Shown here: in pieces, positions 14,654-38,463 of the stretch
Layout: the number at the start of each line of letters is the position of its first letter
How positions within the stretch are numbered: position 1 is the first letter of the stretch
NCBI GenBank assembly: GCA_030595925.1
Contig: JAUVLC010000009.1
Location: 1 to 39,570 of the forward strand
Reading direction: 5' to 3'
Source of the DNA: Clostridia bacterium
Lineage (GTDB): Bacteria; CBDUZB01; JAGLHV01
Length of the DNA: 39,570 bases
The notes under the pieces: model-generated
Database searches by the model: none
Seen by the model: the letters and a program-made list of their open reading frames with translations, nothing else
What the model was told of the DNA's origin: nothing
Made by a program: the position numbers and the translations under genes

Positions 14654-14671
14654 TAAAGTTGGTTTGAATTT

Positions 14672-21398: not shown

Positions 21399-22055
21399 AT
21401 GAAAAAGCGAAGGAAAGAAGGGATATTTATTACCTTTGAAGGGCCGGAAGGGAGCGGGAAAAGCCTTCAGGCAAAGAAGGTTTGTAAATATTTAAAGGAT
21501 AAGGGGTTTCCTGTGATTCATACCAGGGAGCCGGGTGGGACGGATTTAGGCCGGACTTTGCGCAAAATCCTGTTAAATCCGCGTAATAAAATTGACTCTA
21601 AAACTGAACTTTTTCTTAATTTTGCCGATAGAGCAGAGCATATTGTTCAGGTAATCAAGCCGGCGTTAAAAGAAGGAAAGGTTATTATCTGTGAACGGTT
21701 TAATGATGCTACTCTGGCTTATCAGGGATACGGGAGAGGGTTAGATAGGAGTTTAATAAAAAAAATAGGGTGTTTTATTGAGGATGGAATCGTTCCGAAT
21801 TTAACTTTTCTTTTGGACATAAAAGTTGAACAGGGGCTGAAGAGAGCGGTAAATACAGCTAAAGATTTTAAAAAGGGTGAGGGAGACCGGTTAGAGCAGG
21901 AAAAAATTTCTTTTCATCGTAAGGTTCGCCGGGGATATCAGGCTATTGCCAGGGAAGACGGGAAGAGAATAAAAGTAATTTCAGGTACAAAAAGTATAGA
22001 GCAGGTTTTCGAGAAAATAGTCAATTATATTAATATAGTTCTTGAAATAAAGTAA
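21399..22055 (+). CDS. tmk: Thymidylate kinase
   Basis: Phosphorylates dTMP to dTDP for DNA synthesis. The 218-residue protein has the P-loop GPEGSGKS (15-22), the dTMP-binding TREPGG (42-47), and ICERFNDATLAYQGYGRGLD (98-116), where the usual DR[FY] is ERF. A Lys/Arg-containing lid segment follows (about 150-170). Glu for Asp in the DR motif is seen in some TMPKs and keeps the acidic charge. The ribosome-binding site is modest (AAGG about 10 nt upstream). It is the first gene after a strong promoter, followed 9-15 nt later by holB, a common bacterial order. Confidence 0.95.
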   Translation: MKKRRKEGIFITFEGPEGSGKSLQAKKVCKYLKDKGFPVIHTREPGGTDLGRTLRKILLNPRNKIDSKTELFLNFADRAEHIVQVIKPALKEGKVIICERFNDATLAYQGYGRGLDRSLIKKIGCFIEDGIVPNLTFLLDIKVEQGLKRAVNTAKDFKKGEGDRLEQEKISFHRKVRRGYQAIAREDGKRIKVISGTKSIEQVFEKIVNYINIVLEIK

Positions 22056-22070
22056 GGAAGAGATTTGAAA

Positions 22071-23081
22071 ATGTTTTTTTCAGATGTTTTGGGGCAGGAA
22101 CTGCCCATTAAAATCATACAAAATGCAATAAAAAAGGAAAAGTGTGCCCATGCTTATTTATTTGTAGGGCCGGAAGGGGTGGGAAAGAAATCTACTGCTT
22201 TTGCTTTTGCCCGTTTATTAAATTGTAAAAATAGAATAGCTATAGATAGTAAAGGCGAAAAACACGAATCCAATGGGGATAATTTAGATTTGCAGGATAT
22301 AAACATCTATGATTCCTGTGGTGAATGCATTTCTTGTAAGAAAATTAAAAAAGGGATTCATCCGGATGTAAGTTTTATTTATCCTGAGAAAAAAGACATT
22401 CGTATCAATCAAATGAGGGTTTTAAAATATCAGGCTCAATTTAAGCCGATGGAAGGCCGTTGGAAAGTTTATATAATTGATAAAGCCCATATGATGAATA
22501 AAGAATCTGCAAATAGCGTATTGAAACTTTTAGAAGAGCCCCCGGATAAAGTTTTAATTATTCTTATTGCACAAAACAAATACGGGATATTACCTACGAT
22601 TATTTCCAGATGTCAGGTAATTAAATTTAATCTGCTTCCTTCTGATTTAATAATTCGTTCTTTGAAAGAAAAGTATAACATAGAAGAAAAAAAAGCTTTA
22701 TTTTTCAGTAGGTTGTCCCATGGAAGTATAGGAAAAGCCTTTTCTTGTTGTGAAGAGAAGATGGATGAGACAAAGAAAAAAGCGGACTTATTAATTTCTA
22801 AAATGAAGAAAGGGGATTTTATTAGTTTGTTTTCTGAAAGCGAAAAATTGTCTTTTAGTAAGGAGAAGGAAGAATTAAAAAAAATTTTAAATATAATGAT
22901 TGTTTTTTATAGAGAAAAAATGTATGAAAACCCTACCAGTGAATATATAAAGATATTAGAGGTTATTTTGCAGACGAAAGAAAGTATAAAAAGAAATATA
23001 AATGTAGGTTTAGCTCTGGATGAAATGTTTTTAAATGTAAATAAAATAATGGAAAACAAAAAATTTGCTGAGATTATTTAA
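22071..23081 (+). CDS. holB: DNA polymerase III delta-prime subunit
   Basis: Clamp-loader subunit, AAA+ fold. I use the ATG at 22071, with AAGGAAG 10 nt upstream; an in-frame TTG at 22065 is possible. P-loop GPEGVGKK is near residue 33. The zinc module has C52 and then C83-x2-C86-x2-C89 (CGECISC). The first Cys is separated from the rest by about 30 residues instead of the usual 8, because of an Asp/Lys-rich insertion. The DEAH-like box is IIDKAHMM, with a non-acidic replacement (DKAH). The segment SANSVLKLLEEPP and the arginine finger SRC follow, all typical. A modified P-loop and box suit the non-hydrolysing delta-prime role. Confidence 0.92.
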   Translation: MFFSDVLGQELPIKIIQNAIKKEKCAHAYLFVGPEGVGKKSTAFAFARLLNCKNRIAIDSKGEKHESNGDNLDLQDINIYDSCGECISCKKIKKGIHPDVSFIYPEKKDIRINQMRVLKYQAQFKPMEGRWKVYIIDKAHMMNKESANSVLKLLEEPPDKVLIILIAQNKYGILPTIISRCQVIKFNLLPSDLIIRSLKEKYNIEEKKALFFSRLSHGSIGKAFSCCEEKMDETKKKADLLISKMKKGDFISLFSESEKLSFSKEKEELKKILNIMIVFYREKMYENPTSEYIKILEVILQTKESIKRNINVGLALDEMFLNVNKIMENKKFAEII

Positions 23082-23170
23082 TGGTTTTTAGTTTAAAATT
23101 TAACATTTACAGTAGCCTTAAGTAAAAGATATAGGTTAGGGGTAAATGACGGCTTTAAGGAGAAAATAAT

Positions 23171-23995
23171 ATGCCGGTAGTAGTGGGAGTGGAAACAAGG
23201 AAAAATAAGGATGTTTTTTATTTTAATCCCCGGGATTTGGATTTAGCGGTAGAAGATAAAGTATTGGTCGAAACGGAAAATGGTATTGAATGGGGGGTGG
23301 TGGTAGAATTAGAAAAGGTATTAGAGAAAAAGAAAGAAAGGATAAAAAATATTATAAGGAAAATGAATGAGTATGATTTCAATAAATTAAAAGAAAATAA
23401 GATAAAAGAAAAAGCAGCACTTAAGAGTTGTTTGCAAAAGGTAGAAGATAGAGAGTTAAAAATGAAATTAGCCAGTGTGGAATATACTTTTGACCGGAAT
23501 AAACTCTTTGTGTATTATACTGCAGAAGGAAGAATTGATTTTAGGGAATTGATCAAAGATTTAGGGTATCTTTTGAAAAGTCGTATTCAAATGGTTCAAA
23601 TAGGGGTAAGGGATGAAGCCAAAATGTTGGGTGCTTTTGGTACTTGCGGCCGGATGCTTTGTTGTAAGGCTTTTCTTCATGAGTTTAAACCGGTAGGTAT
23701 CGAAATGGCTAAAGAACAAAATTTATCTTTAAATCCCAATAAAATATCAGGGGCGTGCGGTCGATTAATGTGTTGTTTGGCCTATGAATACAAAGATTAT
23801 AAAGAAGTGAAAAAGAGATTGCCTAAAAAGGGGCTAAAAGTAAAAACCAGCCAGGGAGAAGGGATAGTGAAAGATGTAAATCTTTTTACGGAAGAAATTA
23901 CTATTGATTGTGGGAAAGGTGTTTTTAAAAAAGTTCCTGTTAGTGAAATTCATGTCGGTATTTTAGATAAATTTAAATTAAGTAAAAATAAATAG
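23171..23995 (+). CDS. ricT: PSP1-domain protein, RicT/YaaT-like
   Basis: The 274-residue protein has the complete PSP1 core: KLFVYYTAEGRIDFRELIKDL, then GVRDEAKMLGAFGTCGRMLCC and ISGACGRLMCCLAYE. Six cysteines (C159, C164, C165, C196, C201, C202) lie in two CG-x3-4-CC clusters, the iron-sulfur ligand region of the Bacillus RicT (YaaT) complex. In Bacillus RicA/F/T promotes mRNA maturation with RNase Y and phosphorelay; partners are not in this window, so the role here is less certain. AAGGAG gives a clear start. Its place between holB and metG is conserved in many bacteria. Confidence 0.9.
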   Translation: MPVVVGVETRKNKDVFYFNPRDLDLAVEDKVLVETENGIEWGVVVELEKVLEKKKERIKNIIRKMNEYDFNKLKENKIKEKAALKSCLQKVEDRELKMKLASVEYTFDRNKLFVYYTAEGRIDFRELIKDLGYLLKSRIQMVQIGVRDEAKMLGAFGTCGRMLCCKAFLHEFKPVGIEMAKEQNLSLNPNKISGACGRLMCCLAYEYKDYKEVKKRLPKKGLKVKTSQGEGIVKDVNLFTEEITIDCGKGVFKKVPVSEIHVGILDKFKLSKNK

Positions 23996-24030
23996 GCAGT
24001 TAAATTTTAAAACAAGGATAATCAAACAAC

Positions 24031-25560
24031 GTGAATAAGAAATTCTATATCACTACTCCATTATATTATGTTAATGATGTCTTACACATTGGGCATGCGT
24101 ATTGTACTGTCGCAGTGGATGTATTGGCACGTTTTAGAAGATTGAAGGGAGAAGAAGTTTTTTTTTTAACAGGGACTGATGAGCATGGACAAAAAATAGA
24201 ACAGGCGGCACGGTTAAAAGGGGAAGAGCCGCAAGCGTGGGTAGAGAGGATTGTTAAGGAAGACAAAAAACTATGGGAGAGATTGAATATCTCTTATGAT
24301 GATTTTATTCAAACGACCCAGGTACGGCATAAAGATACGGTACAGGCTGTTTTTACTAAACTTTATGAAAAAGGGGATATTTACAAGGGGAAATATGAAG
24401 GATGGTATTGTGTTCCTTGTGAAACTTTTTGTTTAGAAGGGCAATTGGTTGAAGGTAAATGTCCGGAATGTGGACGGATAGCGGAAAAAGTTGCTGAGGA
24501 AAGTTATTTCTTTAAATTGTCCGAATATCAGGAAAAGTTATTAGATTATTTTAATAAAAATCCTGATTTTATGCAGCCGCCATCCCGACAGGCAGAAATG
24601 ATTAATTTTGTGAAAGATGGATTGAAAGATCTAAGTGTGAGCAGATTGGGTACTAAGTGGGGAATACCGGTACCGTTTGATTCCAAACATACTATTTATG
24701 TGTGGTTTGATGCATTGATAAATTATATTACTGCTGTTGATTATCTTAAAGAAGGTGAGAAGTTTAAAAAATTTTGGCCTGCTGATATTCATCTGGTAGG
24801 AAAGGAAATATTCAAATTTCATGTAATTATTTGGCCGGCTATGTTAATGGCTTTAGATATAAAAATTCCCCGTAAGGTTTTTGGTCATGGATGGTGGACG
24901 GTAGAAGGAAAGAAAATGAGTAAGTCCAAAGGGAATGTGGTAGATCCCCATCAGGTAGTGGATGAATTCGGAGTAGATGCGTTTCGTTATTTTCTTCTAC
25001 GGGAGGTACCGTTTGGTTTAGATGGTGATTTTTCAAAGGATTCTTTTATCAATCGTTATAATGCTGATTTAGCTAATGATTTAGGTAATTTGCTCAACCG
25101 GACATTAGTTATGTTGGATAAATATTTTGAGGGGATTATTCCTGTCCCGGAAAGTAAAGAAAAAATAGATGATGATTTAATAAATCTTATCCAAAAACTT
25201 CCCTCTAATTTGGAAGAATCATTGGAAAGATTGGAATTTCATTCTGCTTTTTCTTATATCTGGGAGATAGTTAATTTTGCCAATAAATATATTGATGAGA
25301 TGGCTCCATGGAAATTATTCAAGGATAATAAGGAAAGGCTGCAAACAGTTATTTATAATTTAATAGAGGCTTTACGAATAATTTCTTTAGCTGTTGCTCC
25401 TTTTATGCCTGAAACTAACGAAAAAATGGAGAAACAATTAGGAATTTCTCATCATAAATCTTTTGAGGCAATGGTTTGGGGTGGGATTAAACCCGGGAAT
25501 AAAATAGAAATGAAGGGGAGGGAACCCTTGTTTCCCCGAATAATTAAACCTAAAAAGTAG
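24031..25560 (+). CDS. metG: Methionyl-tRNA synthetase
   Basis: Charges tRNA-Met. GTG start at 24031 after AAGGATAATC. In 509 residues: HIGH (19-22) and KMSKS (295-299) ATP motifs, connective zinc knuckle with C127, C130, C144 and C147 (one four-Cys site), and TGTDEHG (48-54). The anticodon-binding helices follow (about 360-500: LGNLLNRTL, MAPWKLFKD). It stops without the C-terminal tRNA-binding EMAP-like domain found in longer MetG proteins. I see no T-box or other leader structure before it; the gap from ricT is only 35 nt, so it likely reads through from tmk. Confidence 0.96.
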   Translation: MNKKFYITTPLYYVNDVLHIGHAYCTVAVDVLARFRRLKGEEVFFLTGTDEHGQKIEQAARLKGEEPQAWVERIVKEDKKLWERLNISYDDFIQTTQVRHKDTVQAVFTKLYEKGDIYKGKYEGWYCVPCETFCLEGQLVEGKCPECGRIAEKVAEESYFFKLSEYQEKLLDYFNKNPDFMQPPSRQAEMINFVKDGLKDLSVSRLGTKWGIPVPFDSKHTIYVWFDALINYITAVDYLKEGEKFKKFWPADIHLVGKEIFKFHVIIWPAMLMALDIKIPRKVFGHGWWTVEGKKMSKSKGNVVDPHQVVDEFGVDAFRYFLLREVPFGLDGDFSKDSFINRYNADLANDLGNLLNRTLVMLDKYFEGIIPVPESKEKIDDDLINLIQKLPSNLEESLERLEFHSAFSYIWEIVNFANKYIDEMAPWKLFKDNKERLQTVIYNLIEALRIISLAVAPFMPETNEKMEKQLGISHHKSFEAMVWGGIKPGNKIEMKGREPLFPRIIKPKK

Positions 25561-25639
25561 TTTTTATCAAAAGCGGGATAATTAATTGCTGATAATGTTT
25601 TGGAAAATATAAGTTTGGTTGGTTGTGGGGGTTTTTTCA

Positions 25640-26587
25640 ATGAAAGAGAAAAAAATAATTTTAAACTTTATTTTGGGATTGATTATTTTAATGCTAAGTA
25701 TTTCCGGTTTTTCCATCGGGAAATATATTTTTAATTTTAAAGATATTTTTTCTTATCATAAGGCAACTTCGAGCGAAGTGGAAAAATCAAGTATTTCTTA
25801 TGTCAACTGGGAAAACAAAGCAGAGAAAATACTAAATAAAAAAACGGATAAATTAACTTTTGTTGATTTTGTTAGTAAGAAAAATAAATCATCAAAGAAA
25901 AAGAAAATTTTAATTTCTAAGAAGAAACAAATTGCAAAAAAGATAAAGAGAAAAAAAATAAAAATACCTGTTGTTTCTAAAGAGTTAATTGTAGATGATT
26001 TTGACCGGAAAACATATTTAAATAGTTTAGGGGAAAATAGCGGAATATTTTCAGGCGGGGGGGGAGTTTGTGAACGGGTTTTTTCTTCCGATGAGTTTTT
26101 TCCTATGGGGTATTTATTAAGACTGGATTATGATGTAAGTATTGAAAGGTCATATGCCGGGTTCTGGACTGGATTGGGAGGAATTAATTTAATCTCTTAT
26201 GATTATTTATCTTTTTGGATTAAGGGATTGAAGGGTAGGGAATCTTTTAGACTAGAGATTAGTGATGGTATAAATAATGTAGGGTTTTCTATTAGGGCCT
26301 TTTTATCGGATAAAAGGGATTCTTCCTGGCAGAAAGTTTTTATTCCTTTAGATTCTTCTTTTAAGGGTATTAATTGGGGAAAAATGAAAGGAAATCTTAC
26401 TTTTACTTTTGAGTATTCCGAGGGTTTACCTTATAAAAGTACGGTATTTATTGAACGAATAAGTTTTGTTGCTGAGAAAAAAAATAAAAAAACATCGAAT
26501 AATTTTAACGATTACTTGTCCTCTCCGTTTTATTTATCGGAGGCGGAGAGGATAAAGTGCGTCATTGAGAAGTTCCAAATGAGCTAA
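25640..26587 (+). CDS. Membrane-anchored CBM-like (galactose-binding fold) protein 1
   Basis: Start chosen at ATG 25640, behind a GGGGG stretch, rather than at the in-frame TTG at 25619. Basic N-terminus, one TM (about 6-28, N-in/C-out), a Lys-rich linker (about 75-108), then a beta-sandwich domain (about 112-290). That domain has DDFDRKTYLNSLGE, GFWTGLGGINLISYDYLSFWIKG, SFRLEISDG, and SWQKVFIPLD. This pattern resembles CBM11/CIA30-type carbohydrate-binding sandwiches, recognised by pattern only. The downstream protein at 27167-28096 has the same layout. A G8 run (26057-26064) codes for GGGG in the domain. The function is unknown: possibly binding glycan at the outer face of the inner membrane. 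First gene of a five-gene cassette. Confidence 0.6.
   Translation: MKEKKIILNFILGLIILMLSISGFSIGKYIFNFKDIFSYHKATSSEVEKSSISYVNWENKAEKILNKKTDKLTFVDFVSKKNKSSKKKKILISKKKQIAKKIKRKKIKIPVVSKELIVDDFDRKTYLNSLGENSGIFSGGGGVCERVFSSDEFFPMGYLLRLDYDVSIERSYAGFWTGLGGINLISYDYLSFWIKGLKGRESFRLEISDGINNVGFSIRAFLSDKRDSSWQKVFIPLDSSFKGINWGKMKGNLTFTFEYSEGLPYKSTVFIERISFVAEKKNKKTSNNFNDYLSSPFYLSEAERIKCVIEKFQMS
26057..26064 (+). repeat. G8 homopolymer inside CBM-like gene 1
   Basis: Eight consecutive G in an AT-rich gene, placed about 45% into the coding sequence; loss or gain of one G would truncate the protein within the sandwich domain. Confidence 0.55.
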
Positions 26588-26731
26588 AGCAATATTGATT
26601 GATATGATATTTTATGGTATTGTTTTGTCCCGGAGTTTGTTCTGAGCATTATTTAAGGACTTGTCTCAATGACATCAAATAGGCAATTTTGTAGAATTCT
26701 AAAAATATTTAGTAAGAGGAGAAACCTAAAT

Positions 26732-27139
26732 ATGCAAATAATTTATCATGTTATGGTTTTTATTTTGTCTCTTTGTACTCTTGTTTTGTGGTTTTGGTTA
26801 AAGAAAGCAAATAGAAGAGCTGCTACCAATTTGAATAAACAAAGTGTGGGAAGTATAGAAAATTATTTGGAAAAAATAAATAAAACGATGGAAAATTTGA
26901 ATAGTAAATTTTGGGAATATGATAATTATTTAGCTAATATTCAGAGGACCGTTGAAGAAGAACGGCGGGAAATCATAAAATTATTAGAGAATGTAACCAG
27001 ATTGATAGAAAAGGAAAAAAAAGAAAACAACTATTCTTTTCCTAAACAAGACAAACATTTAGTTTCTGAGTTAAATCAAAAAGTAGGTGATTTAGAAAGC
27101 AAGTTGAGGCAATATGTTCAAAAAGGCGGAATTTTATAA
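26732..27139 (+). CDS. Small TM plus coiled-coil protein 1
   Basis: Start chosen at the ATG at 26732, 9 nt behind AAGAGGAG, instead of an in-frame ATG at 26669 that has no ribosome-binding site. The product is 135 residues: TM at about 3-24, then KKANRR (positive-inside, so the C-terminal part should be cytoplasmic). A long charged helical stretch follows with coiled-coil heptads (about 40-130: YLEKINKTMENLNSKFWE, EEERREIIKLLENVT, LNQKVGDLESKL). I recognise no family. The protein at 28144-28785 has the same plan. Confidence 0.6.
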   Translation: MQIIYHVMVFILSLCTLVLWFWLKKANRRAATNLNKQSVGSIENYLEKINKTMENLNSKFWEYDNYLANIQRTVEEERREIIKLLENVTRLIEKEKKENNYSFPKQDKHLVSELNQKVGDLESKLRQYVQKGGIL

Positions 27140-27166
27140 TACTTAATAAGTGGATGAAATAACCGA

Positions 27167-28096
27167 ATGAAAGAAAAGATAGAAAAAAATGGTGTAATAA
27201 TTATTTGGATAATAGTTGGCTTAATTATCCTTATAAACGGAGCCTTCTTTTTGATAGGAATAATAGATTTGTTTAAACGAAGTGGTCCTTCTTTAAAACC
27301 TGTTCCTATTGTTAAAACAGACAAAGAAGTTATTATTGAAGAGAAACAGGATGTTGAAGAAAAGTCTAAGAAATTTGTTGAGGAATCGAAAGAAGAAAGT
27401 ATTGTAGAAAAAGAAAAAGTCTTTAAAAAAGAAATTAAACCAAAAAAAGAGGTTAAAGCCAAAAAAGAAATAAAACCAAAAAAAGAAATTAAACCAAAAA
27501 AAGAAATTAAAGCTAAGAAAGAGGTCAAACTAAAAAAAGAAAAAACAAAACCTGCGGAAAAGAAAGTTGGAAAAAGAAAGGGTATTTTATTTTTAAATAA
27601 TTTTGATAATAATACAACAAAAAATGATTTAGGAAAAAAGACCTGGTGTTTTAAAAAAGGAGAGGGGGTTTGTATTGATTCTTTTTACTATAATATAAAT
27701 ATCCCCAATACCTATAATGACAGGAATGGAGAATATTCCTTGCGTTTATCCTTTGCTGTTTCGAAATCAGGGGATATGAGTGGGTTTTCCAGTGATTTTA
27801 AAGATGTGGATTTAAGCAGTTATCGATATTTATCTTTTTGGGTCAGAGGTGCAGAAGGGGGAGAAATTTTCAGAGTAAGAATTAGTGATGGTGTAAAAGC
27901 AAGTGAAATTTCAATTAAAGGTTTTTTTCCGAAAGGTTTATTTCCGTATTGGAGAAGGGTTGTGATTCCTTTAAAAATATTTAAAAGCATAAAAAAATGG
28001 AATAAAATAAAAGGTTCTTTGAGTTTTGTTTTTGATTATAAAGTAAGCACTGTTCGTCAGGGTGTGATTTATATTGATGAAATTGTATTTGAATAA
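27167..28096 (+). CDS. Membrane-anchored CBM-like (galactose-binding fold) protein 2
   Basis: 309 residues. TM at about 9-34 (N-in), an acidic Glu/Lys stretch, then a hexad repeat of the type K-x-K-K-E-I/V repeated six to seven times (residues 88-125). A C-terminal beta-sandwich follows (about 140-309: FLNNFDNNTTKNDLG, VDLSSYRYLSFWVRGAEGG, FRVRISDG, WRRVVIPLK, VIYIDEIVF), clearly related in pattern to protein 1. The rigid charged repeat could hold the sandwich away from the membrane, as TonB-like linkers do. It starts 27 nt after the first coiled-coil gene; the ribosome-binding site is weak (GGATG). Confidence 0.6.
   Translation: MKEKIEKNGVIIIWIIVGLIILINGAFFLIGIIDLFKRSGPSLKPVPIVKTDKEVIIEEKQDVEEKSKKFVEESKEESIVEKEKVFKKEIKPKKEVKAKKEIKPKKEIKPKKEIKAKKEVKLKKEKTKPAEKKVGKRKGILFLNNFDNNTTKNDLGKKTWCFKKGEGVCIDSFYYNINIPNTYNDRNGEYSLRLSFAVSKSGDMSGFSSDFKDVDLSSYRYLSFWVRGAEGGEIFRVRISDGVKASEISIKGFFPKGLFPYWRRVVIPLKIFKSIKKWNKIKGSLSFVFDYKVSTVRQGVIYIDEIVFE
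27428..27541 (+). repeat. Tandem repeat coding for K-x-K-K-E-I/V hexads
   Basis: About 18-nt imperfect units built on AAACCAAAAAAAGAAATT in the linker of CBM-like protein 2. The near-identical DNA units suggest recent expansion by slippage, so the linker length may vary among strains. Confidence 0.65.
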
Positions 28097-28143
28097 ACTA
28101 TGACTTTTCAGTTAAACTACATTAAAGTAGGGGGATAAACAGG

Positions 28144-28785
28144 GTGATAAAAGATTTGCTTATTAAAAACCAGGGGTTTATTTTTAGTGTTATGATTTTT
28201 ATTTTAATTTCTTTTGTTGTTATTTTATTAATTTGGCTTAAAAAAATTGCAGGGAGAAAAGATCCTTTATCTGTCAAGGGAGGGGAATTTGTTATAGGAA
28301 AACAATTGAAGGATGACATTCATAAATTATCGGAGTTGATTAAGGAAAATAATAACGCAAAACAACAAATAGAAGATTTAGCAAAAAATTTACGCAATGA
28401 AGAGGAAAAAAGAAAAAAAGATAAAGCGAATATAGATAAAGAAAAAGCAGAAGAAAAAAAGAAGTTTAAAGAATCTCTTAATGTGTTAATAAAAAAAATA
28501 GCATCTGTCGAGATTAATCAAAAAAGCATTGATTCATCCATAGAGGCTTTACAGAATAGAATTGAAGACATGAGAGAAGATATGAATAATATGGATAGTA
28601 GTGGGAGTGTAAATGCTGACGGGAGCAGTAATAAAGAATTGAAACACGAAATCGATAGTTTAGAAGAGGAAATAAAAGCAAATCAAAAACAAATGGAAAA
28701 TTGGTATAGGCTTTTTGAAAGCATTGATGCTGATATGGTGGATATAAATAATAAATTGAAAGAATTAGAGGAAAGAAAGAATTAG
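28144..28785 (+). CDS. Small TM plus coiled-coil protein 2
   Basis: GTG start at 28144 with AGTAGGGGG upstream. 213 residues: TM at about 13-35, followed by KKIAGRK (positive-inside, C-terminus cytoplasmic). A very charged coiled coil spans about 60-210 (KELIRE/EKRKKDKANIDKEKAEEKKKF-type heptads), with a short Ser/Gly break (SSGSVNADGSSN) near 150. No recognisable enzyme motif. A 17-nt unit is duplicated across its stop codon. Co-oriented with and close to CBM-like protein 2 and the GH57-fold gene. Confidence 0.6.
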   Translation: MIKDLLIKNQGFIFSVMIFILISFVVILLIWLKKIAGRKDPLSVKGGEFVIGKQLKDDIHKLSELIKENNNAKQQIEDLAKNLRNEEEKRKKDKANIDKEKAEEKKKFKESLNVLIKKIASVEINQKSIDSSIEALQNRIEDMREDMNNMDSSGSVNADGSSNKELKHEIDSLEEEIKANQKQMENWYRLFESIDADMVDINNKLKELEERKN

Positions 28786-28801
28786 AGGAAAGAAAGAATT
28801 A
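28759..28801 (+). repeat. 17-nt tandem repeat across a stop codon
   Basis: Unit AAAGAATTAGAGGAAAG occurs at 28759-28775 and 28776-28792, with a partial third copy to 28801. The stop TAG of the coiled-coil gene falls in unit 2; removing one unit would still give a stop, so the protein end changes little. Confidence 0.8.
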
Positions 28802-28820
28802 ATTGATGAGGTAAGAGCAA

Positions 28821-31271
28821 TTGAAAACATTTAATAAAATGAGAATTATCGATTTTAAAATGGGTAAAAATTTATTTTTGGTTGGTATTCTAATTGTGTT
28901 TTTTATTATAGGAATAAATAGTTTTGTTCTGTCTATGGGAAAAAGACCTAAAGAAGTTAGGCCTTTGAAAGAGGAAGAAAGTGTTTCTCAAACTCCGGAT
29001 GTTGAACAGGATTCTGAATCGGTTGGGTTATATCTTTTTCTTATTCTAAATCAAAAATGTCCTGATTATTTTCAGGATTTTTCCATGGAAGGAATTAATC
29101 CCTGGGTAAGATTATATAGTACAAGGTATTTGTATCCATGGGCAAAGGAGCTGGAAAATTGTCCGCAGAATTTTCATTGTATTTTACATTTGGATTCTCT
29201 TTTAATAAAAGGGATAGAAGAGTTAGTTGCCGGAGAGAAAGAAGACATTTATTTTACTTTAAGCAAAAAGCCTGTGATTGATTTAACAGAAGAGGATAAG
29301 GATTTTATTTTTAAGTATTTTTTTTACATTCCCATACAGGTAAATGCTGATTTTTATAGCCGTTATAAGGAGTTAAAATCATTACCCAGACATCGTTATA
29401 CTAATCAGGATTTTTTAGATCTGGAGGTTTTATTTGCTCTGTCCTGGCTGGATCCTCAGTTACAGAAAGAATATTTTAGTCGATATTTTAAAGGGAAAAA
29501 TCGTTCATTTACCGAAAAGGAAAAAATGAACGTTTTTGAAAAACAAATGGAACTTGTCCGTCAGGTTATTCCCTTATTAAAAGCCTTACAGGATAAAAAA
29601 CAAATAGAAATAATGTGTACCCCATATCATGAAATTATTTTACCGTTGATTCATGATAGTAATTTAGCCAGGGTTTCCGATACCGAAATTAAATTTCCTA
29701 CCGAAAATTTTTCTTATCCGGAAGATGTTCAAAGTCAGTTAGCTAAAGGATTAATTACTTATGAGACGTTTTTTGGCTCTTATCCCATGGGCTTATGGTT
29801 GCCGGAGGGGGCAATAGCTGAAGAGTTATTTGTTTTCTTTAGTTCTTTTGGTATAAAATGGATATTTGTAGAAGAAGATATTTTAAGAGAATCTCTGGAA
29901 GAGGAAAATTTATACCATTCTTGCTTTTTTGAAAAAGAAAAAGATATAACTATTTTTCCTTTACATCGGGGAATATCAAGAAAGATAAATAATATTTATT
30001 TTTTGCAGGGAGCGGAAAAAGCAAGTAGAAAATTGGTCAGTGAATTATTTCGTATTAGGAAAAAGTTTAAAAAATTTCAGCGCCAGCCGGAGATAGTAAC
30101 GCTCAATCTGGAAGTAGATAGTGATTTCATTTTTAAATTAGATGAGGTTTTTTCCGAATATCCTGAATTGGTAACTACTACTTATCCTAAATGGTTTGCT
30201 AATTATCCTTACTCAAGGCAATTGGATAACATAAAATGTGATTCGGAAAAAGGTGGTTTTTCTGCCTGGATAGGGAAAGAAAGGCAAAATAGGGCATGGA
30301 ATAATTTGGTTTATGCCCGTGAGGCAATAGGAAAATATAAAAATAGCGGTGAAGCAAGAATTAAACGATTAGATGCAGCATTCGAAAAAATATATACTGC
30401 TCAGGAAGCAAAATGGTTTTTCTGTTTTGGGCAGGATAATGAAAAAATCGATTTAGATAAAGTAGAACAGGAATACAACGATTTATTAGCGGATATATAT
30501 AAAGATATAAGGTATAAGGTTCCTAATTACCTATTAGTTCCTTCAACGGACACGGTAAATGTTGTAGATGCTGATATTATCTTAAAAGTTCATGACCCAC
30601 TGGGAGATGATAATGGTAGTGGTGATTATATTTATCCTCTAAATGATGTTTTTGTTCCGGGTATTTTTGATTTGGAAGAGTTTTCAGTGAGAAAAAAGGA
30701 AAAATATTTTGTTCTCAGTATAAAATTAAATAAATTGGATAATCCATGGCAATTACCGTTAGGAATGAGTTTTCCGATAGTTGATATTTATATTGATTTG
30801 AATAATATTCCCAGAGCAGGAAGTACTTTTCTTCTGCCACAAAGAAATGCTTATACTATGCCTAAAGATGCCTGGGAATATTGTGTAACAATCAATGGGG
30901 AAACACAGGAAATTTATAAAGCAGTAATAAATTCTGATCCGGTTAAAGTTGCTGACGTTAAAGTGAAAATAAATTTTGAGGAAAACATAATAAATGCATA
31001 TATTCCTAAAAATTTTCTTCGCGGAAATCCAAAAAACTGGGGATTTATTCCCCTTGTTTTAAACTATGATAATGAATCTCCGGACAAAAGGTGGAAGGTT
31101 AGCAAAGTAAAAAAAGAAGTTACCCAATGGAATTTTGGTGGCGGATTTTATGAAGAAAAAAATCCTAATATAATTGATGTGATTTTACCTCAGGGTAAAA
31201 AACAGAAAAAAATATTAGGTGTTTATAAAAAAAAGCAGGCAGTGCAGATTCCCGCTTTGCGATGTAATTGA
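28821..31271 (+). CDS. GH57-fold secreted protein with glucodextranase-C-like domain, probable pseudo-glycosidase
   Basis: TTG start at 28821, 9 nt after GATGAGG; ATG at 28839 is the alternative. 816 residues. A signal/TM segment lies at about 17-39 (GKNLFLVGILIVFFIIGIN). The GH57 core spans about 68-560: HLDSLLIKGIEELVAGE, RYTNQDFLDLEVLFALSWLDP, PYHEIILPLI, FGSYPMGLWLPEGAIAEEL, AKWFFCFGQDN. The C-terminal sandwich (about 585-770: DPLGDDNGSGDYIYPLNDVF, PIVDIYIDLNN) is of glucodextranase C type. Several usual catalytic motifs are not intact. The first motif reads LILNQKCP instead of the usual His-x-His-Gln-Pro. A later region reads FPLHRGISRKI instead of the Arg-Asp-His type. The usual Asp-Gly-Glu-Asn is replaced. 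It may bind glucan rather than cut it. It closes the cassette. Confidence 0.72.
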   Translation: MKTFNKMRIIDFKMGKNLFLVGILIVFFIIGINSFVLSMGKRPKEVRPLKEEESVSQTPDVEQDSESVGLYLFLILNQKCPDYFQDFSMEGINPWVRLYSTRYLYPWAKELENCPQNFHCILHLDSLLIKGIEELVAGEKEDIYFTLSKKPVIDLTEEDKDFIFKYFFYIPIQVNADFYSRYKELKSLPRHRYTNQDFLDLEVLFALSWLDPQLQKEYFSRYFKGKNRSFTEKEKMNVFEKQMELVRQVIPLLKALQDKKQIEIMCTPYHEIILPLIHDSNLARVSDTEIKFPTENFSYPEDVQSQLAKGLITYETFFGSYPMGLWLPEGAIAEELFVFFSSFGIKWIFVEEDILRESLEEENLYHSCFFEKEKDITIFPLHRGISRKINNIYFLQGAEKASRKLVSELFRIRKKFKKFQRQPEIVTLNLEVDSDFIFKLDEVFSEYPELVTTTYPKWFANYPYSRQLDNIKCDSEKGGFSAWIGKERQNRAWNNLVYAREAIGKYKNSGEARIKRLDAAFEKIYTAQEAKWFFCFGQDNEKIDLDKVEQEYNDLLADIYKDIRYKVPNYLLVPSTDTVNVVDADIILKVHDPLGDDNGSGDYIYPLNDVFVPGIFDLEEFSVRKKEKYFVLSIKLNKLDNPWQLPLGMSFPIVDIYIDLNNIPRAGSTFLLPQRNAYTMPKDAWEYCVTINGETQEIYKAVINSDPVKVADVKVKINFEENIINAYIPKNFLRGNPKNWGFIPLVLNYDNESPDKRWKVSKVKKEVTQWNFGGGFYEEKNPNIIDVILPQGKKQKKILGVYKKKQAVQIPALRCN

Positions 31272-31592: not shown

Positions 31593-33155
31593 GTGAAAAA
31601 AACAAGTTGGTTAAATGTAAAAAGAATAAAATCATTACTATTGGGGATGACTGTTTTTATTTGTGTTTTTATTTTTTTAAGATTAAGTAAGGATAGTTCT
31701 TCTTCTTTATGTATGGCCAAACAACAGATAGCCGGTGATTCTAAAAAGACGGATACGGCGGTTCCCGCAACACTAAAAAATCTTCAGGATTCTTTTGTAC
31801 AGGTAGCTGATTTGGTAAAACCGGCAGTGGTTAATATCACTGCTACTCATTTAATAGAACAAAAAATGCCTTATTATGAATTTAATTTTGGTGATCCTTT
31901 TGAACAATTTTTCAGGGATTTTTACGGTCAGCCAAAGAGGCAGCCACCGCAGAGAAAAAAACAATATCGTAAATTCGGGGCTACGGGTTCAGGGGTAATT
32001 ATTGATAGTAAAGGATATATTTTGACTAATTATCATGTAGTAAAAGATGCCGGGGAGATAAAAGTTACTTTAAGCGGGGATGAAGGTCATCAATATAAAG
32101 GTAAGATAATTGGTAAAGACGATCGATTAGACTTAGCGATAGTGAAGATAAAGTCGAGAAAAAAATTGCCGGTAGCTGTTTTAGGAGATTCCGATAAAAT
32201 GAAAGTAGGAAATTGGGTTTTGGCGGTAGGTTCTCCTTTTGGTTTAGAACAAACAGTTACTGCCGGAATAGTGAGTGCCATACGCCAGAGTGTTCATATA
32301 GAAAACAGGACTTATAAAGAATTGATTCAAACTGATGCGGCAATAAATCAGGGGAATAGTGGCGGCCCATTAGTGAATATAGAAGGCAAAGTAATTGGCA
32401 TTAATACAGCTATTTATGCACCTATGGGTGGATTTGTAGGAGTAGGATTTGCTATTCCGATTAACAGAGCTAAAGAAATATTGGATGATTTAATCCATAA
32501 AGGTAAAGTAATTAGGGGATGGTTGGGTGTAGAAATAAGGCCGGTAGATGAAGCCATTGCCAAACATTTTGGGTTGAAGAAGAAAGAAGGGGCATTAGTC
32601 AATAAGGTGTTTGCTAATACTCCTGCGGAAAAAGGGGGACTCAAGCGGGGAGATGTTATTCTGGAATTTGATGGGAAAAAAGTAAAAGATTCCCTTAGTT
32701 TGCAGGATATAGTAGGCCGGACTTCGCCTAATAAAAAAGTCAAAGTGAAAATAGTCCGTAATATGAAAGAAAAGAAATTGCAAATCGTAACCGAAGAAAT
32801 GCCTGATGCTTCCGGGGAAGAAGAAGTAATTGATTCGGAAGAATCTTCACCGGTAGAAGAAGAAGTTTCCAAAGCCTGGCTGGGAATGAAAGTAAAAACC
32901 CTAACCCCGTTATTAATCCGGAGATTAGGTTTATCCAATGATGAAAAAGGAGTAGTGATTGTAGAAATAGAACCCGGGAGTATTGCTGATGAAGCAGGTT
33001 TGTTGCAGGGAGATTGTATGCGCAGTATAAACCGAATACCTGTACCTAATATAAAGGTATTTAATCAGGTAATTAAAAAAGCAAAATTGTCTAAGGGCAT
33101 TGTTATAGATATAAATAGGAGAGGCAAGTTAATTTACCTTTCGATAACTGAATAA
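31593..33155 (+). CDS. degP: Periplasmic serine protease/chaperone, DegP/HtrA (Do) family
   Basis: GTG start at 31593 after a strong AAGGAGGGT. 520 residues: membrane anchor/signal (about 12-30), trypsin-like domain (about 65-275), PDZ1 (about 285-385) and PDZ2 (about 425-515). Catalytic triad is H148 (LTNYHVV), D180 (DLAIVKI) and S256 (GNSGGPL), all intact. The Q/R-rich insert at 100-125 (PFEQFFRDFYGQPKRQPPQ) matches the LA loop of Do proteases. An acidic linker (EEEVIDSEESSPVEEE) joins the PDZ domains. It degrades or refolds damaged envelope proteins. Two PDZ domains favour DegP/DegQ over DegS. The short leader and repeat block upstream leave its promoter unclear. Confidence 0.95.
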   Translation: MKKTSWLNVKRIKSLLLGMTVFICVFIFLRLSKDSSSSLCMAKQQIAGDSKKTDTAVPATLKNLQDSFVQVADLVKPAVVNITATHLIEQKMPYYEFNFGDPFEQFFRDFYGQPKRQPPQRKKQYRKFGATGSGVIIDSKGYILTNYHVVKDAGEIKVTLSGDEGHQYKGKIIGKDDRLDLAIVKIKSRKKLPVAVLGDSDKMKVGNWVLAVGSPFGLEQTVTAGIVSAIRQSVHIENRTYKELIQTDAAINQGNSGGPLVNIEGKVIGINTAIYAPMGGFVGVGFAIPINRAKEILDDLIHKGKVIRGWLGVEIRPVDEAIAKHFGLKKKEGALVNKVFANTPAEKGGLKRGDVILEFDGKKVKDSLSLQDIVGRTSPNKKVKVKIVRNMKEKKLQIVTEEMPDASGEEEVIDSEESSPVEEEVSKAWLGMKVKTLTPLLIRRLGLSNDEKGVVIVEIEPGSIADEAGLLQGDCMRSINRIPVPNIKVFNQVIKKAKLSKGIVIDINRRGKLIYLSITE

Positions 33156-33196: not shown

Positions 33197-35395
33197 ATGA
33201 ATGATTTTTTGGATGGTTTAAATAATGTACAGCGTTTGGGTGTAGAACATAAAGAAGGTCCTTTATTGATTTCAGCCGGTGCCGGCTCGGGAAAAACAAG
33301 GGTAATTATTTGCCGTATTGCTTATTTAATAAGTAAGGGAGTGTTGCCCTGGAATATATTAGCGGTTACGTTTACTAATAAAGCCGCTAAGCAAATGCAG
33401 GAAAGAATAAATAAATTAATTGGTACAGATGCCTCGGGGGTTTGGATTTCTACCTTTCATTCTTTTTGTACCAGGGTTTTACGGAGTGAAACGGAAAAAA
33501 TAGATAGAATGAAAAATTTTGTAATCTACGATGAAAATGATCAGGTAGCTCTGATTAAAGAATGTCTTAAGGAATTAAATTGTATCGATAAAAAGCTTAA
33601 ACCCAAGATGCTTCGGGCTCTTATCAGCAGAGCAAAGAACGAATTGATGGATTGGGAATCTTATCAAATCTATGCTGAAACCTCCAATGACCAATTTAGA
33701 GAAACATTAAGTGATATTTATAAATTATATCAGGAAAAACTAAAAAGGAATAATGCCCTTGATTTTGCCGATTTGATTATGATGACGGTGCTTCTCTTTA
33801 AGGAACACCAGGATGTTTTGAATAAATACCAGGAAAGATTCAAATATCTTATGGTTGATGAATATCAGGATACAAATCACGCCCAATATAGTTTAGTGAA
33901 ACTACTGGCCGGTAAATATAATAATCTCTGTGTAGTAGGGGATGAAGACCAGAATATTTATTCTTTTCGCGGGGCTGATATTAGAAATATACTGGAATTT
34001 GAAAAAGATTACAAAAATGCCAGGGTAATAAAGTTGGAACAGAATTATCGTTCTACCACTAATATTCTTGATGTTGCCTGGAAAGTAGTAAAAAATAATC
34101 AATCTCGAAAAGATAAAAAATTATGGACAGAAAAACCCGAGGGGGCACCTGTTTTTTATCAGGAAGTAGCTAATGAATTACAGGAATCTTGCGGGGTAAT
34201 TTCTGAGATTAGAAGATTAACCAGTGAAGAAAATCATAATTATCGGGATTGTGCTATATTTTATCGCACCAATGCCCAATCACGTGTACTGGAAGATGCT
34301 TTAAGGAAAGAAAATATTTCTTATGTAATAGTTGGAAATATCAGATTTTATGATCGGGCGGAAGTCAAAGATATCCTTGCTTATTTAAGAGTAATAGTTA
34401 ATCCTCTGGATTCATTGAGTTTAAAAAGAATAGTTAATATTCCCAATCGGGGCATAGGAAAAGCGGCAATGGGGTGGATAGAAAATTATGCCGCCGTGAA
34501 TAAAATATCGAGTTTCCAGGCAATAGACAGAATAATAACAGAGGAAAACCCGGAAAAAGGAAAGAAGGGGCTTTCTAAAAAAGCAGCTGCCGGAATGAGA
34601 GAATTTTTAAAATTGGTAAAAAAGTTTATTATGGAAAAAGAAAATTTAAGAGCAGGGGAATTAATCGGGCAATTGATCAGTGAAAGTGGATATTTGCAAA
34701 AATTGGAAGAAGAAGACAGTATTGAAGCGCAGGGAAGAATAGAAAATATAAAGGAATTGGTTTCTGCCGTTTGGGAATATGAAGAAATGGCCGAAGATAA
34801 AAGTATTGAGGGATTTTTAGAACAGGTTTCTTTAGTTAGTGGTTTGGATTCGTGGGAGGAAGATCAGAATTATGTTACTTTAATGACTTTACATTTGGCT
34901 AAGGGATTAGAATTTCCGGTTGTTTTTATGACTGGTATGGAAGAGGGGTTGTTTCCTCACAATGAAGCAAGTTTTGATGATACGGATTTGGAAGAAGAAA
35001 GAAGACTTTGTTATGTGGGGATGACCAGAGCGGAAGAGAGGCTTTATTTAACCAGCAGTGCTTCCCGTCGCCTTTATGGACAGAGCAGATGGAATGTTCC
35101 TTCCCGTTTTATAGCAGAAGCAGGGCTTACCTCCGGAGCTGTATTTGAGGATGATTATGTTTCATTATTAACCCAGGAAAAAGAAGAAAAAGTTTTAGAA
35201 AACAATAATAATGAAAAAAATCATGATGATGATATTGAATGGTCTATAGGTGATATGATTTCTCATTCTGAGTTTGGAGAAGGAAGAATTATTAAATGCA
35301 GCGGTAGTGGGGAGGATTTAAAAGTAGAGGTATTATTTAAAACCGGAGAAAAAAAGAAGCTAATGGTAAAATATGCACCGTTACAGTCAATTTAA
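33197..35395 (+). CDS. pcrA: UvrD/PcrA-type superfamily 1A DNA helicase
   Basis: 732 residues with the complete SF1A motif set in order: Q-motif region (LDGLNNVQRLGVEH), motif I AGAGSGKT (27-34), Ia TFTNKAAKQM, II VDEYQDTN (220s), III DEDQNIYSFRGAD, IV LEQNYRS, V TLHLAKGLEFPVVF, and VI YVGMTRAEERLYL. The C-terminal Tudor-like tail (GDMISHSEFGEGRIIKCSG...VKYAPLQ) is the PcrA/UvrD hallmark that contacts RNA polymerase. It is a 3'-5' helicase for repair and replication fork maintenance. GAGG gives a clear start at 33197. Whether to call it pcrA, uvrD or rep is a matter of lineage; pcrA suits the length and tail. Confidence 0.94.
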   Translation: MNDFLDGLNNVQRLGVEHKEGPLLISAGAGSGKTRVIICRIAYLISKGVLPWNILAVTFTNKAAKQMQERINKLIGTDASGVWISTFHSFCTRVLRSETEKIDRMKNFVIYDENDQVALIKECLKELNCIDKKLKPKMLRALISRAKNELMDWESYQIYAETSNDQFRETLSDIYKLYQEKLKRNNALDFADLIMMTVLLFKEHQDVLNKYQERFKYLMVDEYQDTNHAQYSLVKLLAGKYNNLCVVGDEDQNIYSFRGADIRNILEFEKDYKNARVIKLEQNYRSTTNILDVAWKVVKNNQSRKDKKLWTEKPEGAPVFYQEVANELQESCGVISEIRRLTSEENHNYRDCAIFYRTNAQSRVLEDALRKENISYVIVGNIRFYDRAEVKDILAYLRVIVNPLDSLSLKRIVNIPNRGIGKAAMGWIENYAAVNKISSFQAIDRIITEENPEKGKKGLSKKAAAGMREFLKLVKKFIMEKENLRAGELIGQLISESGYLQKLEEEDSIEAQGRIENIKELVSAVWEYEEMAEDKSIEGFLEQVSLVSGLDSWEEDQNYVTLMTLHLAKGLEFPVVFMTGMEEGLFPHNEASFDDTDLEEERRLCYVGMTRAEERLYLTSSASRRLYGQSRWNVPSRFIAEAGLTSGAVFEDDYVSLLTQEKEEKVLENNNNEKNHDDDIEWSIGDMISHSEFGEGRIIKCSGSGEDLKVEVLFKTGEKKKLMVKYAPLQSI

Positions 35396-35594
35396 AATTA
35401 ATATGTAATCCATATTTGTTATATTAATTTAAATTTAGTATTTATTTTGCAGGAGCAAAGCGATACTCTCGCCTCAGGCGGATTTCAATTAGTTCTTTAA
35501 TATTGGTAGCCGCAGACTTCAGTCTGCGTATAAGTTTTAGTTGTATTGTTTTTTGTATTTGTTCTTTTATTTTTTTGTTTTATTTTTTGTTTCT

Positions 35595-35630
35595 CCTCTC
35601 CCTTGATGAGAGAGGATTAAGGTGAGGGTG
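35595..35630 (+). repeat. CCTCTCCC...GGTGAGGGTG repeat, copy 1 (before gatC)
   Basis: CCTCTC and GAGAGG form a 6-bp stem, followed by ATTAAGGTGAGGGTG. The element also occurs before gatA (36564-36599) and gatB (38132-38166), same strand. This motif type is common as a dispersed repeat in unrelated bacteria. Confidence 0.8.
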
Positions 35631-35649
35631 TTTTGTAGTTGCTCCATTT

Positions 35650-35793
35650 AGAGATTGTTGAAAAACTCTTTTAAGGTGTCGTTGCGAGGAGCAAAGCGAC
35701 GAAGCAATCTCGTCGTTATCGTCGAAGAATAAGATTGCCGTGCCCTTAGAGCTCGCAATGACAGAGACAAAAAAGCTTTTTTCAACAATCTCT
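35650..35793. mobile_element. MITE-like element, copy 2 (144 bp)
   Basis: Perfect 16-bp terminal inverted repeats: AGAGATTGTTGAAAAA (35650-35665) and TTTTTCAACAATCTCT (35778-35793). The interior is the GCAAAGCGACGAAGCAATCT palindromic block shared with 9411-9554; length identical (144 bp). TTTA is found at both junctions. There is no coding capacity, so any transposition would need a transposase in trans; none is in the window. Confidence 0.8.
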
Positions 35794-35818
35794 TTATGGA
35801 ATTGTCTTTTTGTATTTT

Positions 35819-35853
35819 GAATTTAGGATTTAGAATTTAGAATTTAGTATTTT
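35819..35853 (+). repeat. Heptamer array GAATTTA
   Basis: Five 7-nt units in a row: GAATTTA, GGATTTA, GAATTTA, GAATTTA, GTATTTT. Also occurs as single units in other spacers. It is the first of three different heptamer arrays near the gat genes. Confidence 0.7.
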
Positions 35854-35903
35854 ATTTTTTTGTAGTTGCAGAGCTTGCTCTGCTATAAAAGGGGGGGAGA
35901 AAG

Positions 35904-36374
35904 ATGGGAACAACTTTAAAGGACATAAATTATATTATGAAATTAGCTCGTTTGGAATTAAATGAACTGGAAAAAGAAAAAGATACTCCGGATTTAAATC
36001 ACATTTTGTTTTATCTGAACAAGGCAGGTGAATTAAATGGTAAAGATGTTAAATCTGAAGAAACAGAAGAAATAAAAGGAGGAGAAATGGGAATAACCGA
36101 AAAAGAAGTAGATTACATTGCCGAATTAGCCCGTTTACAATTAAACAAAATAGAAAGGGACCAATATACTAATGATTTAAATCAGATTTTATCTTATGTA
36201 GATAAATTAAATGAATTAAACACCAACGGAATTGATCCGACTACTCACGTAGTGGAATTGACGAATATATTAAGAAAAGATAGAGAGGAACCTTCTTCAG
36301 TCCAGGGAAAAATATTAAATAATGCTCCGGAAATAGAAAACGGCTGTTTTAAAGTAAAAAAAATAATAGAATAA
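35904..36374 (+). CDS. gatC: Aspartyl/glutamyl-tRNA amidotransferase subunit C with partial internal duplication
   Basis: The frame encodes 156 residues, while GatC is usually about 95. Residues 65-156 are a full GatC (VDYIAELARLQLN, IDPTTHVVELTNILRKDREE). Residues 4-49 are a degenerate copy of its N-terminal helices (INYIMKLARLELN; 22 of 46 identical to 65-110). The second ATG (36087, residue 62) has its own AGGAGG (36077-36082), so normal-size GatC (36087-36374, 95 residues) is probably made from there. The first ATG also has a G-rich site. GatC stabilises the GatA-GatB complex that makes Gln-tRNA and Asn-tRNA. Both products may exist. Confidence 0.88.
   Translation: MGTTLKDINYIMKLARLELNELEKEKDTPDLNHILFYLNKAGELNGKDVKSEETEEIKGGEMGITEKEVDYIAELARLQLNKIERDQYTNDLNQILSYVDKLNELNTNGIDPTTHVVELTNILRKDREEPSSVQGKILNNAPEIENGCFKVKKIIE
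36077..36089 (+). promoter_or_regulatory. Internal ribosome-binding site and start of standard-length GatC
   Basis: AGGAGG (36077-36082), 4-nt spacer, ATG (36087-36089). It lies in frame inside the longer gatC ORF and gives a protein of normal family length, so it probably decides the functional start. Confidence 0.7.
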
Positions 36375-36433
36375 ATAATCTTTCTCTCTGTCATTCCTGC
36401 GGACAGGGTGTAGCACAATTTATATTTTTATGT

Positions 36434-36500
36434 GGTAGCCGCAGGCTTTAGCCTGCGGAAAAACTCCGACGATAACGCAGGCTAAAGCCTGCGGCTACCA
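36434..36500. repeat. Inverted pair of GCAGGCTTTAGCCTGC palindromes between gatC and gatA
   Basis: TGGTAGCCGCAGGCTTTAGC... (36433-36458) and its reverse complement (36476-36500) form a stem of about 25 bp around a 17-nt loop. Each arm is itself palindromic. As RNA this would be a very stable structure between gatC and gatA; no T-tract follows. Confidence 0.75.
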
Positions 36501-36563
36501 AAAAGGCAATTATGACACAGTCTGGTAAGCACTAATCTAAAAATATTACTATTTGCCGTTTTT

Positions 36564-36599
36564 CCTCTCCCTTGATGGGAGAGGAATAAGGTGAGGGTG
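36564..36599 (+). repeat. CCTCTCCC...GGTGAGGGTG repeat, copy 2 (before gatA)
   Basis: CCTCTCCC/GGGAGAGG stem (8 bp) around TTGAT, followed by AATAAGGTGAGGGTG. Ends 27 nt before the gatA ATG. Confidence 0.8.
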
Positions 36600-36625
36600 A
36601 TTTTAATTCAAAAAAAAGGAAAACC

Positions 36626-38065: not shown

Positions 38066-38131
38066 ACACCTAAAATAATTTTTATCAGTCTTTAGGTAGT
38101 CCATCTTTATTACATTAATTTTTTTTTATTT

Positions 38132-38166
38132 CCTCTCCCTTGACGGGAGAGGACTAAGGTGAGGGT
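38132..38166 (+). repeat. CCTCTCCC...GGTGAGGGT repeat, copy 3 (before gatB)
   Basis: CCTCTCCC, TTGAC, GGGAGAGG stem, then ACTAAGGTGAGGGT. Third copy, same strand as copies 1 and 2. Confidence 0.8.
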
Positions 38167-38300
38167 AATTTTGAATTTAGTGTTTGTTTTTGTCCTTTGC
38201 TTTTTCTATTGTTTGTCTTTTTTTCTTTTGTAGTTGCCTGATTTATCAGGCTTTCTTTTAAATTTAATATTTGTCTTTTATGTTTGTAGTTATCTGTTGT

Positions 38301-38331
38301 CTATGGACTATGGACTGTGGACTATGGACTA
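38301..38331 (+). repeat. Heptamer array CTATGGA, first block
   Basis: Four units: CTATGGA, CTATGGA, CTGTGGA, CTATGGA, then a partial CTA. Same unit as 38397-38431. Confidence 0.85.
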
Positions 38332-38351
38332 TTAGTTGTCTTTTGCAGTTA

Positions 38352-38382
38352 ACTTATAACTCATAACTAATAACTCATAACT
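38352..38382 (+). repeat. Heptamer array ACTCATA
   Basis: Units ACTTATA, ACTCATA, ACTAATA, ACTCATA and partial ACT, each 7 nt, lying between the two CTATGGA blocks. Confidence 0.75.
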
Positions 38383-38396
38383 GTAGTTTTTTTTAT

Positions 38397-38433
<37 letters not shown>

Positions 38434-38463
38434 GTCTTATTTTTTTTATACTTGGAGGAAAAA

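Follow-up and report, generated by a model that had tools for sequence, protein, structure and literature searches.

Alternating carbohydrate-binding-type and coiled-coil membrane proteins beside a probable GH57 pseudoenzyme at a conserved locus of an uncultured bacterial genus

The window analysed in this work is a 39,570-nucleotide stretch (GenBank assembly GCA_030595925.1, contig JAUVLC010000009.1, positions 1 to 39,570 of the forward strand) from the genome of a Clostridia bacterium. Five open reading frames (ORFs) on the + strand, designated here P1 to P5, fill positions 25619-31271 between metG (24031-25560) and a degP-like gene (31593-33155). P1 and P3 are predicted to be membrane-anchored proteins with a beta-sandwich of the carbohydrate-binding module (CBM) type, P2 and P4 to be membrane-tethered coiled coils, and P5 is very probably a catalytically inactive relative of glycoside hydrolase family 57 (GH57). 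The features of the locus are as follows.

P1, 25640..26587, + strand: N-terminal transmembrane segment, Lys-rich linker and CBM30/11-type sandwich; the ATG is at position 25640, with an alternative in-frame TTG start further upstream at 25619
P2, 26732..27139, + strand: N-terminal transmembrane segment (N-out, C-in by charge) and a short, predicted cytoplasmic coiled-coil rod; the ORF is open from 26669, and the start is probably the ATG at 26732, which has AGGAG upstream
P3, 27167..28096, + strand: N-terminal transmembrane segment, Lys/Glu-rich linker and CBM30/11-type sandwich; paralogue of P1
P4, 28144..28785, + strand: N-terminal transmembrane segment and a longer coiled-coil rod, with a C-terminal motif RLFESIDADMVDINNKLKELE like that of the sister-phylum rods
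P5, 28821..31271, + strand: predicted exported GH57 pseudoenzyme (~aa 70-578) with a Glucodextran_C domain (aa 587-807); alternative ATG at 28839
degP/htrA-like protease, 31593..33155, + strand: adjoins P5 in the window genus and in the phylum of genome G210
tmk-holB-PSP1-metG block, 21399..25560, + strand: identifies the locus in each of the three phyla considered below
uvrD-gatC-gatA-gatB block, 33197..39570, + strand: closes the locus in the window and in the phylum of G210; represented by uvrD-gatC-gatA in genome G291

A second species of the genus (locus L032) has the same gene order, metG-P1-P2-P3-P4-P5-degP, and its five proteins are 54-74% identical to those of the window. The ratio of nonsynonymous to synonymous differences (pN/pS) between the two species is 0.26-0.48 for P1 to P5, indicating purifying selection, and 0.15-0.20 for metG, PSP1 and degP. 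Because the genes have been kept in order under purifying selection, they are not a chance set of ORFs, and the five-gene layout on one strand from metG to degP, which had been read from the window alone in the initial annotation, is genuine and maintained. In a third species, P5, degP and uvrD are present, and the contig stops inside P5, hence the region of the other four genes falls outside the data. A segment of the window at 26490-26730, comprising the 3' tail of P1 and the following gap, is missing from the homologue in G001 and carries a short inverted repeat (CGTCATTGAGA / TCTCAATGACA); no further copies of this segment were found elsewhere in the genome.

In both P1 and P3, a single N-terminal transmembrane segment is followed by a charged linker (~86-101 residues) and then by a beta-sandwich at the C-terminus. 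With 36% identity over 169 aa (E 4e-22), the two proteins are paralogues. In Pfam searches, both matched CBM30 below the cut-off of 27 bits (P1 20.8 bits, P3 19.5 bits) and CBM11 weakly, while the homologous sandwich of a sister phylum scored 36.6 bits on CBM30, above the cut-off. A profile of the domain family built from 37 sequences matched the CBM30 structures 2c24 and 1wmx with E 1.3e-13, and CBM11 with E 1e-3. AlphaFold modelled the P3 domain with a mean pLDDT of 94, and the top Foldseek matches of the model were to CBM11 and CBM30 (for CBM11, E 8e-8 and TM-score 0.71-0.74). As judged by the profile comparisons and the predicted model, the sandwich has a CBM30/CBM11-type fold, which bears out its initial description as CBM-like. 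P3 lacks the WW pair in the CBM30 alignment. Glycan binding by the sandwiches is putative.

Soluble or lipoprotein-type members of the sandwich domain family occur in several phyla. In a profile search of ~430 genomes, which is a small sample in which the neighbourhoods of weak matches were read only in part, only the window genus and the phylum of genome G240 combined a sandwich on a membrane-anchored stalk with a neighbouring coiled-coil gene. In a tree of the sandwiches, P1 clusters with those of other phyla and apart from P3 (support 95/87), a grouping that is only tentative for so short a domain. The charges flanking the transmembrane segments of P1 and P3 are balanced, and their linkers are 29-36% Lys; the stalk of the sandwich protein in the phylum of G240 is 29-33% Pro. 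The position of the sandwiches outside the cell, which was previously attributed to the positive-inside rule, is therefore proposed here not from charge but because the sandwiches are homologous to exported domains and the sister-phylum proteins show an N-in bias.

P2 and P4 each consist of one N-terminal transmembrane segment and a heptad rod, the heptad contrast of which was equalled by 0/300 and 2/300 shuffled sequences, respectively. The flanking charges, with a positive flank on the C-terminal side in the rods, give an N-out, C-in orientation that is clear for P2 and moderate for P4 and the homologues. The positive-inside rule would thus place the rod inside the cell, a prediction clearly supported for P2 and moderately for P4, and this part of the originally proposed topology stands. 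Compared with the rods of the phylum of G240 using heptad-preserving shuffles, the transmembrane segments were more similar than all but 0/2000 (P4) and 1/2000 (P2) of the controls; for the rod or tail the corresponding values were 6/2000 for the P4 tail, 1/2000 for the tail of the P4 homologue in G001 and 0/500 for the P2 rod. At the sequence level, the similarity of P2 and P4 to the sister-phylum rods thus exceeds that of shuffled sequences. However, a hidden Markov model (HMM) built from those rods matched P2 best (E 5e-7), while P4 has the shared C-terminal motif. P4 was therefore rejected as the sole orthologue of the sister-phylum rod, and no one-to-one orthology was assigned. Searches of the coiled coils against PDB sequences returned nonspecific rods only.

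The similarity of P2 to P4 is confined to the transmembrane region. The suggestion that the two pairs are a duplicated module is thus correct in that a sandwich and coiled-coil pair is present twice with paralogous sandwiches, but it does not extend to the rods. That the whole pair was recently duplicated in tandem is unsupported, as P1 groups apart from P3 and P2 and P4 are alike only at the transmembrane segment.

P5 consists of an N-terminal signal or transmembrane segment, a GH57 domain (PF03065; 76.7 bits against a cut-off of 21.2, E 2e-21) and a Glucodextran_C domain (PF09985; 170.5 bits against a cut-off of 22, E 5e-50). The model of the GH57 part is confident, and Foldseek matched it to the GH57 enzyme of Aquifex aeolicus (E 2e-31, TMt 0.84); over Glucodextran_C the model is unreliable (pLDDT ~30), and this part was not used. 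The catalytic motifs were read from an alignment with 16 GH57 homologues. In conserved sequence region 1 (CSR-1), P5 has LNQKCP where the homologues have WHxHQP, so that the HQP is lost, and in CSR-4 the acid/base loop LDGENxWEYY is replaced and shortened to LNLEVD. The position of the acid/base Asp is occupied by Asn in the window and in G002 and by Thr in G001. Residue N429 of P5 aligns with residue 352 of the A. aeolicus enzyme, the site altered in the D352N mutant structures. The CSR-3 nucleophile is retained as Glu329 of P5, which lines up with the Glu conserved in every homologue. The CSR-1 and CSR-4 motifs are missing in all three species of the window genus, in which the GH57 fold is kept. 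Because these motifs are lost, P5 is very probably a pseudoenzyme, as judged from its sequence, and a role as an active amylase or branching enzyme is unlikely. The GH57 fold named in the initial annotation is therefore genuine, but the loss of the catalytic motifs had been overlooked. Two species of the window genus carry a canonical GH57 protein elsewhere in the genome. Branches in the GH57 tree are long, and the tree did not settle the monophyly of P5.

The distribution of the five genes was examined in related phyla. Using UvrD as a marker among 385 genomes, the nearest relatives of the window were the phylum of G210 (57-59%) and G291 (54%). An adjacent sandwich and coiled-coil pair lies at the metG locus without P5 in four genomes of one sister phylum (G240, G291, G292 and G293), which supports the sandwich and coiled-coil module of the initial annotation. 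In G291, the locus begins as tmk-holB-PSP1-metG-tatD-radical SAM-YabE-like-sandwich-coiled coil and continues, after the coiled coil, as GAF/GGDEF-hybrid kinase-receivers-PilB-PilC-pilins-PilM-secretin-Che genes-uvrD-gatC-x-gatA; of these names, GGDEF, kinase, 3D/G5, PilM, secretin and CheA were checked with Pfam and the remainder assigned by inspection.

In the phylum of G210, the pair is absent and the locus reads tmk-holB-PSP1-metG-(sugar-kinase-like gene)-P5-degP-(multi-transmembrane protein)-uvrD-gatC-x-gatA-gatB. An orthologue of P5 was found in 4/6 genomes of this phylum, adjoined by degP wherever the contig extends that far. These orthologues have a lipoprotein-type N-terminus and lack much of the N-terminal GH57 part, and their Glucodextran_C part is closely similar to that of the window protein. 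In one genome, G296, P5 and metG are broken into overlapping frames (L141:7441-10094 and L141:4597-6004, respectively), which are more likely assembly errors than pseudogenes. Both sister phyla (L120:15976-16350, L151:1644-2018) encode a protein of ~124 aa (MAKKINIKTEKVTMEAELLETKTAKAIWDSLPIEAKVNTWGEEIYF) between gatC and gatA that the window lacks.

The metG-uvrD interval of the window thus holds both modules, the pair and P5. The sister phyla hold only subsets at the locus, one the pair without P5 and the other P5 without the pair, and the view of an indivisible five-gene cassette was abandoned. The parts are separate elsewhere, yet they occur together in at least two species of the window genus, so that the refuting case named in the initial annotation, relatives found apart but in no genome together, did not arise. 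The most parsimonious history has both modules in an ancestor, with differing losses later; gain by transfer is a possible alternative.

The reading that we tentatively favour is that two separable envelope modules share an old chromosomal site, one a two-protein link between the inner membrane and a glycan, the other an exported glycan-binding pseudoenzyme. It builds on the observed gene order, the paralogy and fold of the sandwiches, the presence of the pair in a second phylum, the loss of the P5 motifs and the adjacency of P5 and degP elsewhere. Confidence is high in the anatomy, the fold, the catalytic loss and the separate conservation of the modules, and moderate in the mechanism. Module A, present twice, would be an inner-membrane complex of a sandwich protein and its coiled-coil partner. 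The former would be anchored at its N-terminus and hold its CBM30/11-type domain in the periplasm on a TonB/TolA-like stalk rich in Lys or Pro, and the latter would be a membrane-tethered rod in the cytoplasm; the two may meet via their transmembrane segments. The pair would then form a link between a glycan outside, either peptidoglycan or a polysaccharide that is exported, and a partner inside that acts as a scaffold or in signalling. Module B would be P5, an exported GH57-Glucodextran_C protein, encoded beside DegP, that has lost its acid/base residue and may bind glycan instead of cutting it. An exported GH57 protein has been kept across phyla despite a lost active site, and a binding role is therefore indicated. 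The two modules may also cooperate.

Candidate ligands and partners are encoded nearby: an exopolysaccharide cluster upstream in the window, and a YabE-like wall protein and pilus and chemosensory genes in the sister phylum. The exopolysaccharide cluster (3226-20000) encodes a beta-barrel protein, Wza-type export, Wzz/tyrosine-kinase-like proteins, a flippase, glycosyltransferases and two Wzy/O-antigen ligase-like proteins.

Several observations weigh against this reading. A second sandwich gene in the phylum of G240 has no coiled-coil neighbour. In the profile alignment, the key Trp loop of CBM30 ('lrgW') has no evident counterpart in the window copies, and the balanced charges and Lys-rich linkers of P1 and P3 are compatible with a cytoplasmic sandwich. 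In addition, the HMM of the sister-phylum rods gave P4 no significant score, and coiled-coil similarity is easily overestimated.

That the pair and P5 are functionally unrelated and merely lie at the same old conserved locus is quite possible. Each of the two sister phyla holds one module alone there, and the tmk-holB-PSP1-metG block is widely conserved among bacteria; however, in the window genus all five genes stand together in order at 54-74% identity, separated by short gaps on one strand. A more elaborate form of the favoured reading takes the pair to be a split transmembrane glycan receptor or tether, inherited at a single locus by related phyla, coupled to pili, chemosensory proteins and cyclic di-GMP (c-di-GMP) in one phylum, with the dead GH57 protein as an extra glycan-binding subunit in the window genus; this is doubtful. 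It is also unlikely that the pair acts as a split receptor, sensing surfaces or glycans, whose cytoplasmic rod feeds c-di-GMP, two-component or chemosensory proteins controlling type IV pili or exopolysaccharide. The pair in G291 is followed on the same strand by genes for GAF-GGDEF, hybrid histidine kinase, receivers, PilB/PilC-like, PilM, secretin and CheA proteins, and the window has the exopolysaccharide cluster upstream. But in the window genus no pilus, c-di-GMP, two-component or chemosensory genes lie next to the pair, the rods have no match to a signalling family (P2, P4 and the G291 rod have no Pfam match to an MCP, HAMP or kinase domain), and the gene neighbourhood could reflect position only.

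A scaffold for wall growth or division, in which rods of the EzrA or YhcB type are tethered to the membrane and the sandwiches hold peptidoglycan without signalling, would agree with the N-out, C-in topology of the rods and with the YabE-like wall protein (DUF348-G5-3D) that precedes the pair in the phylum of G240. Given that, for EzrA/YhcB, the Pfam search of the window proteins returned a nonspecific EzrA match only (P4, E 0.29), and that division genes were not seen near the locus in any of the phyla, such a scaffold is improbable. Even less credible is a P5 that remains an enzyme with altered chemistry: Glu329 is invariant in the window, the genus and the proteins of the phylum of G210, and an Asp may persist near the acid/base site in that phylum (IIIDNDES), but all three species of the window genus have lost the His residues of CSR-1 and the DGENxWEYY loop and have Asn or Thr at the acid/base position, and in the G210-type proteins a large portion of the N-terminal GH57 part is missing. 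An anti-phage defence system was rejected, as a PADLOC search gave weak coiled-coil cross-matches only.

Further features were noted in the uvrD-gatC region. The gatC frame (35889-36374) contains two tandem GatC-like segments (MGTTLKDINYIMKLARLEL..., MGITEKEVDYIAELARLQL...), only the second of which is matched by Pfam GatC. The gaps flanking it (35400-35880 and 36380-36620) share similar-looking repeat-like DNA with opposite-strand frames (LTLILSHQGRGE), perhaps small mobile elements or repeats resembling miniature inverted-repeat transposable elements (MITEs). Inside uvrD, positions 34964-35064 match Rfam RF03531, a C. difficile small RNA within a helicase gene; the match is more likely due to helicase coding sequence in common than to a gene for an RNA.

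The host bacterium is known from metagenomes alone. Uncultured phyla gain here a defined and testable envelope module. The parts are conserved in related phyla, and their function is undescribed in the open-licence literature searched. Three related phyla with differing subsets of the parts provide a natural comparison for which parts depend on which.

Searches of the same literature for a CBM with a coiled coil or pilus found no published system with this layout, though its components resemble known proteins. TonB/TolA-type stalk proteins have an N-terminal transmembrane segment, a long Lys/Glu- or Pro-rich linker and a C-terminal beta domain. P1 and P3 share this arrangement but differ in that the C-terminal domain is CBM-like; the window proteins have no Pfam match to a TonB or TolA C-terminal domain, a TonB match of the sister protein reflects linker composition only, and no ExbB/ExbD-like partner was seen in the cassette. 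Tethered coiled coils of the EzrA/YhcB type have a single N-terminal transmembrane segment, a positive C-flank and a cytoplasmic rod. P2 and P4 share these features, with a rod predicted to be cytoplasmic, but have no family-level match, and their genes lie beside a sandwich gene. The sandwich shares its fold and a profile match with CBM30/CBM11 modules (2c24, 1wmx, 1v0a, 6r31). However, the known modules are appended to secreted cellulases, whereas the window domain falls below the Pfam cut-off and would sit at the end of a stalk anchored in the inner membrane, with a coiled-coil partner encoded alongside.

GH57 'like' proteins in which the catalytic machinery is incomplete have already been catalogued (PMC6037648, citing Janecek and Blesak 2011). 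P5 has in common with the proteins described there the GH57 fold and the catalytic loss, retaining the nucleophile Glu and lacking the acid/base Asp. Relative to that description, it additionally lacks the CSR-1 HQP and the entire CSR-4 loop, is predicted to be exported, is fused to Glucodextran_C and is encoded in a conserved envelope locus. A search of open-licence papers for a GH57 pseudoenzyme returned nothing. The secreted GH57-Glucodextran_C proteins of G127 and G257, which belong to other lineages, have the same domain order and an export-signal-like N-terminus but, unlike P5, have intact HQP and LDGENAWE motifs and lie outside a metG-degP locus. The domain pair is therefore not new, and what stands out in P5 is catalytic loss at a conserved locus.

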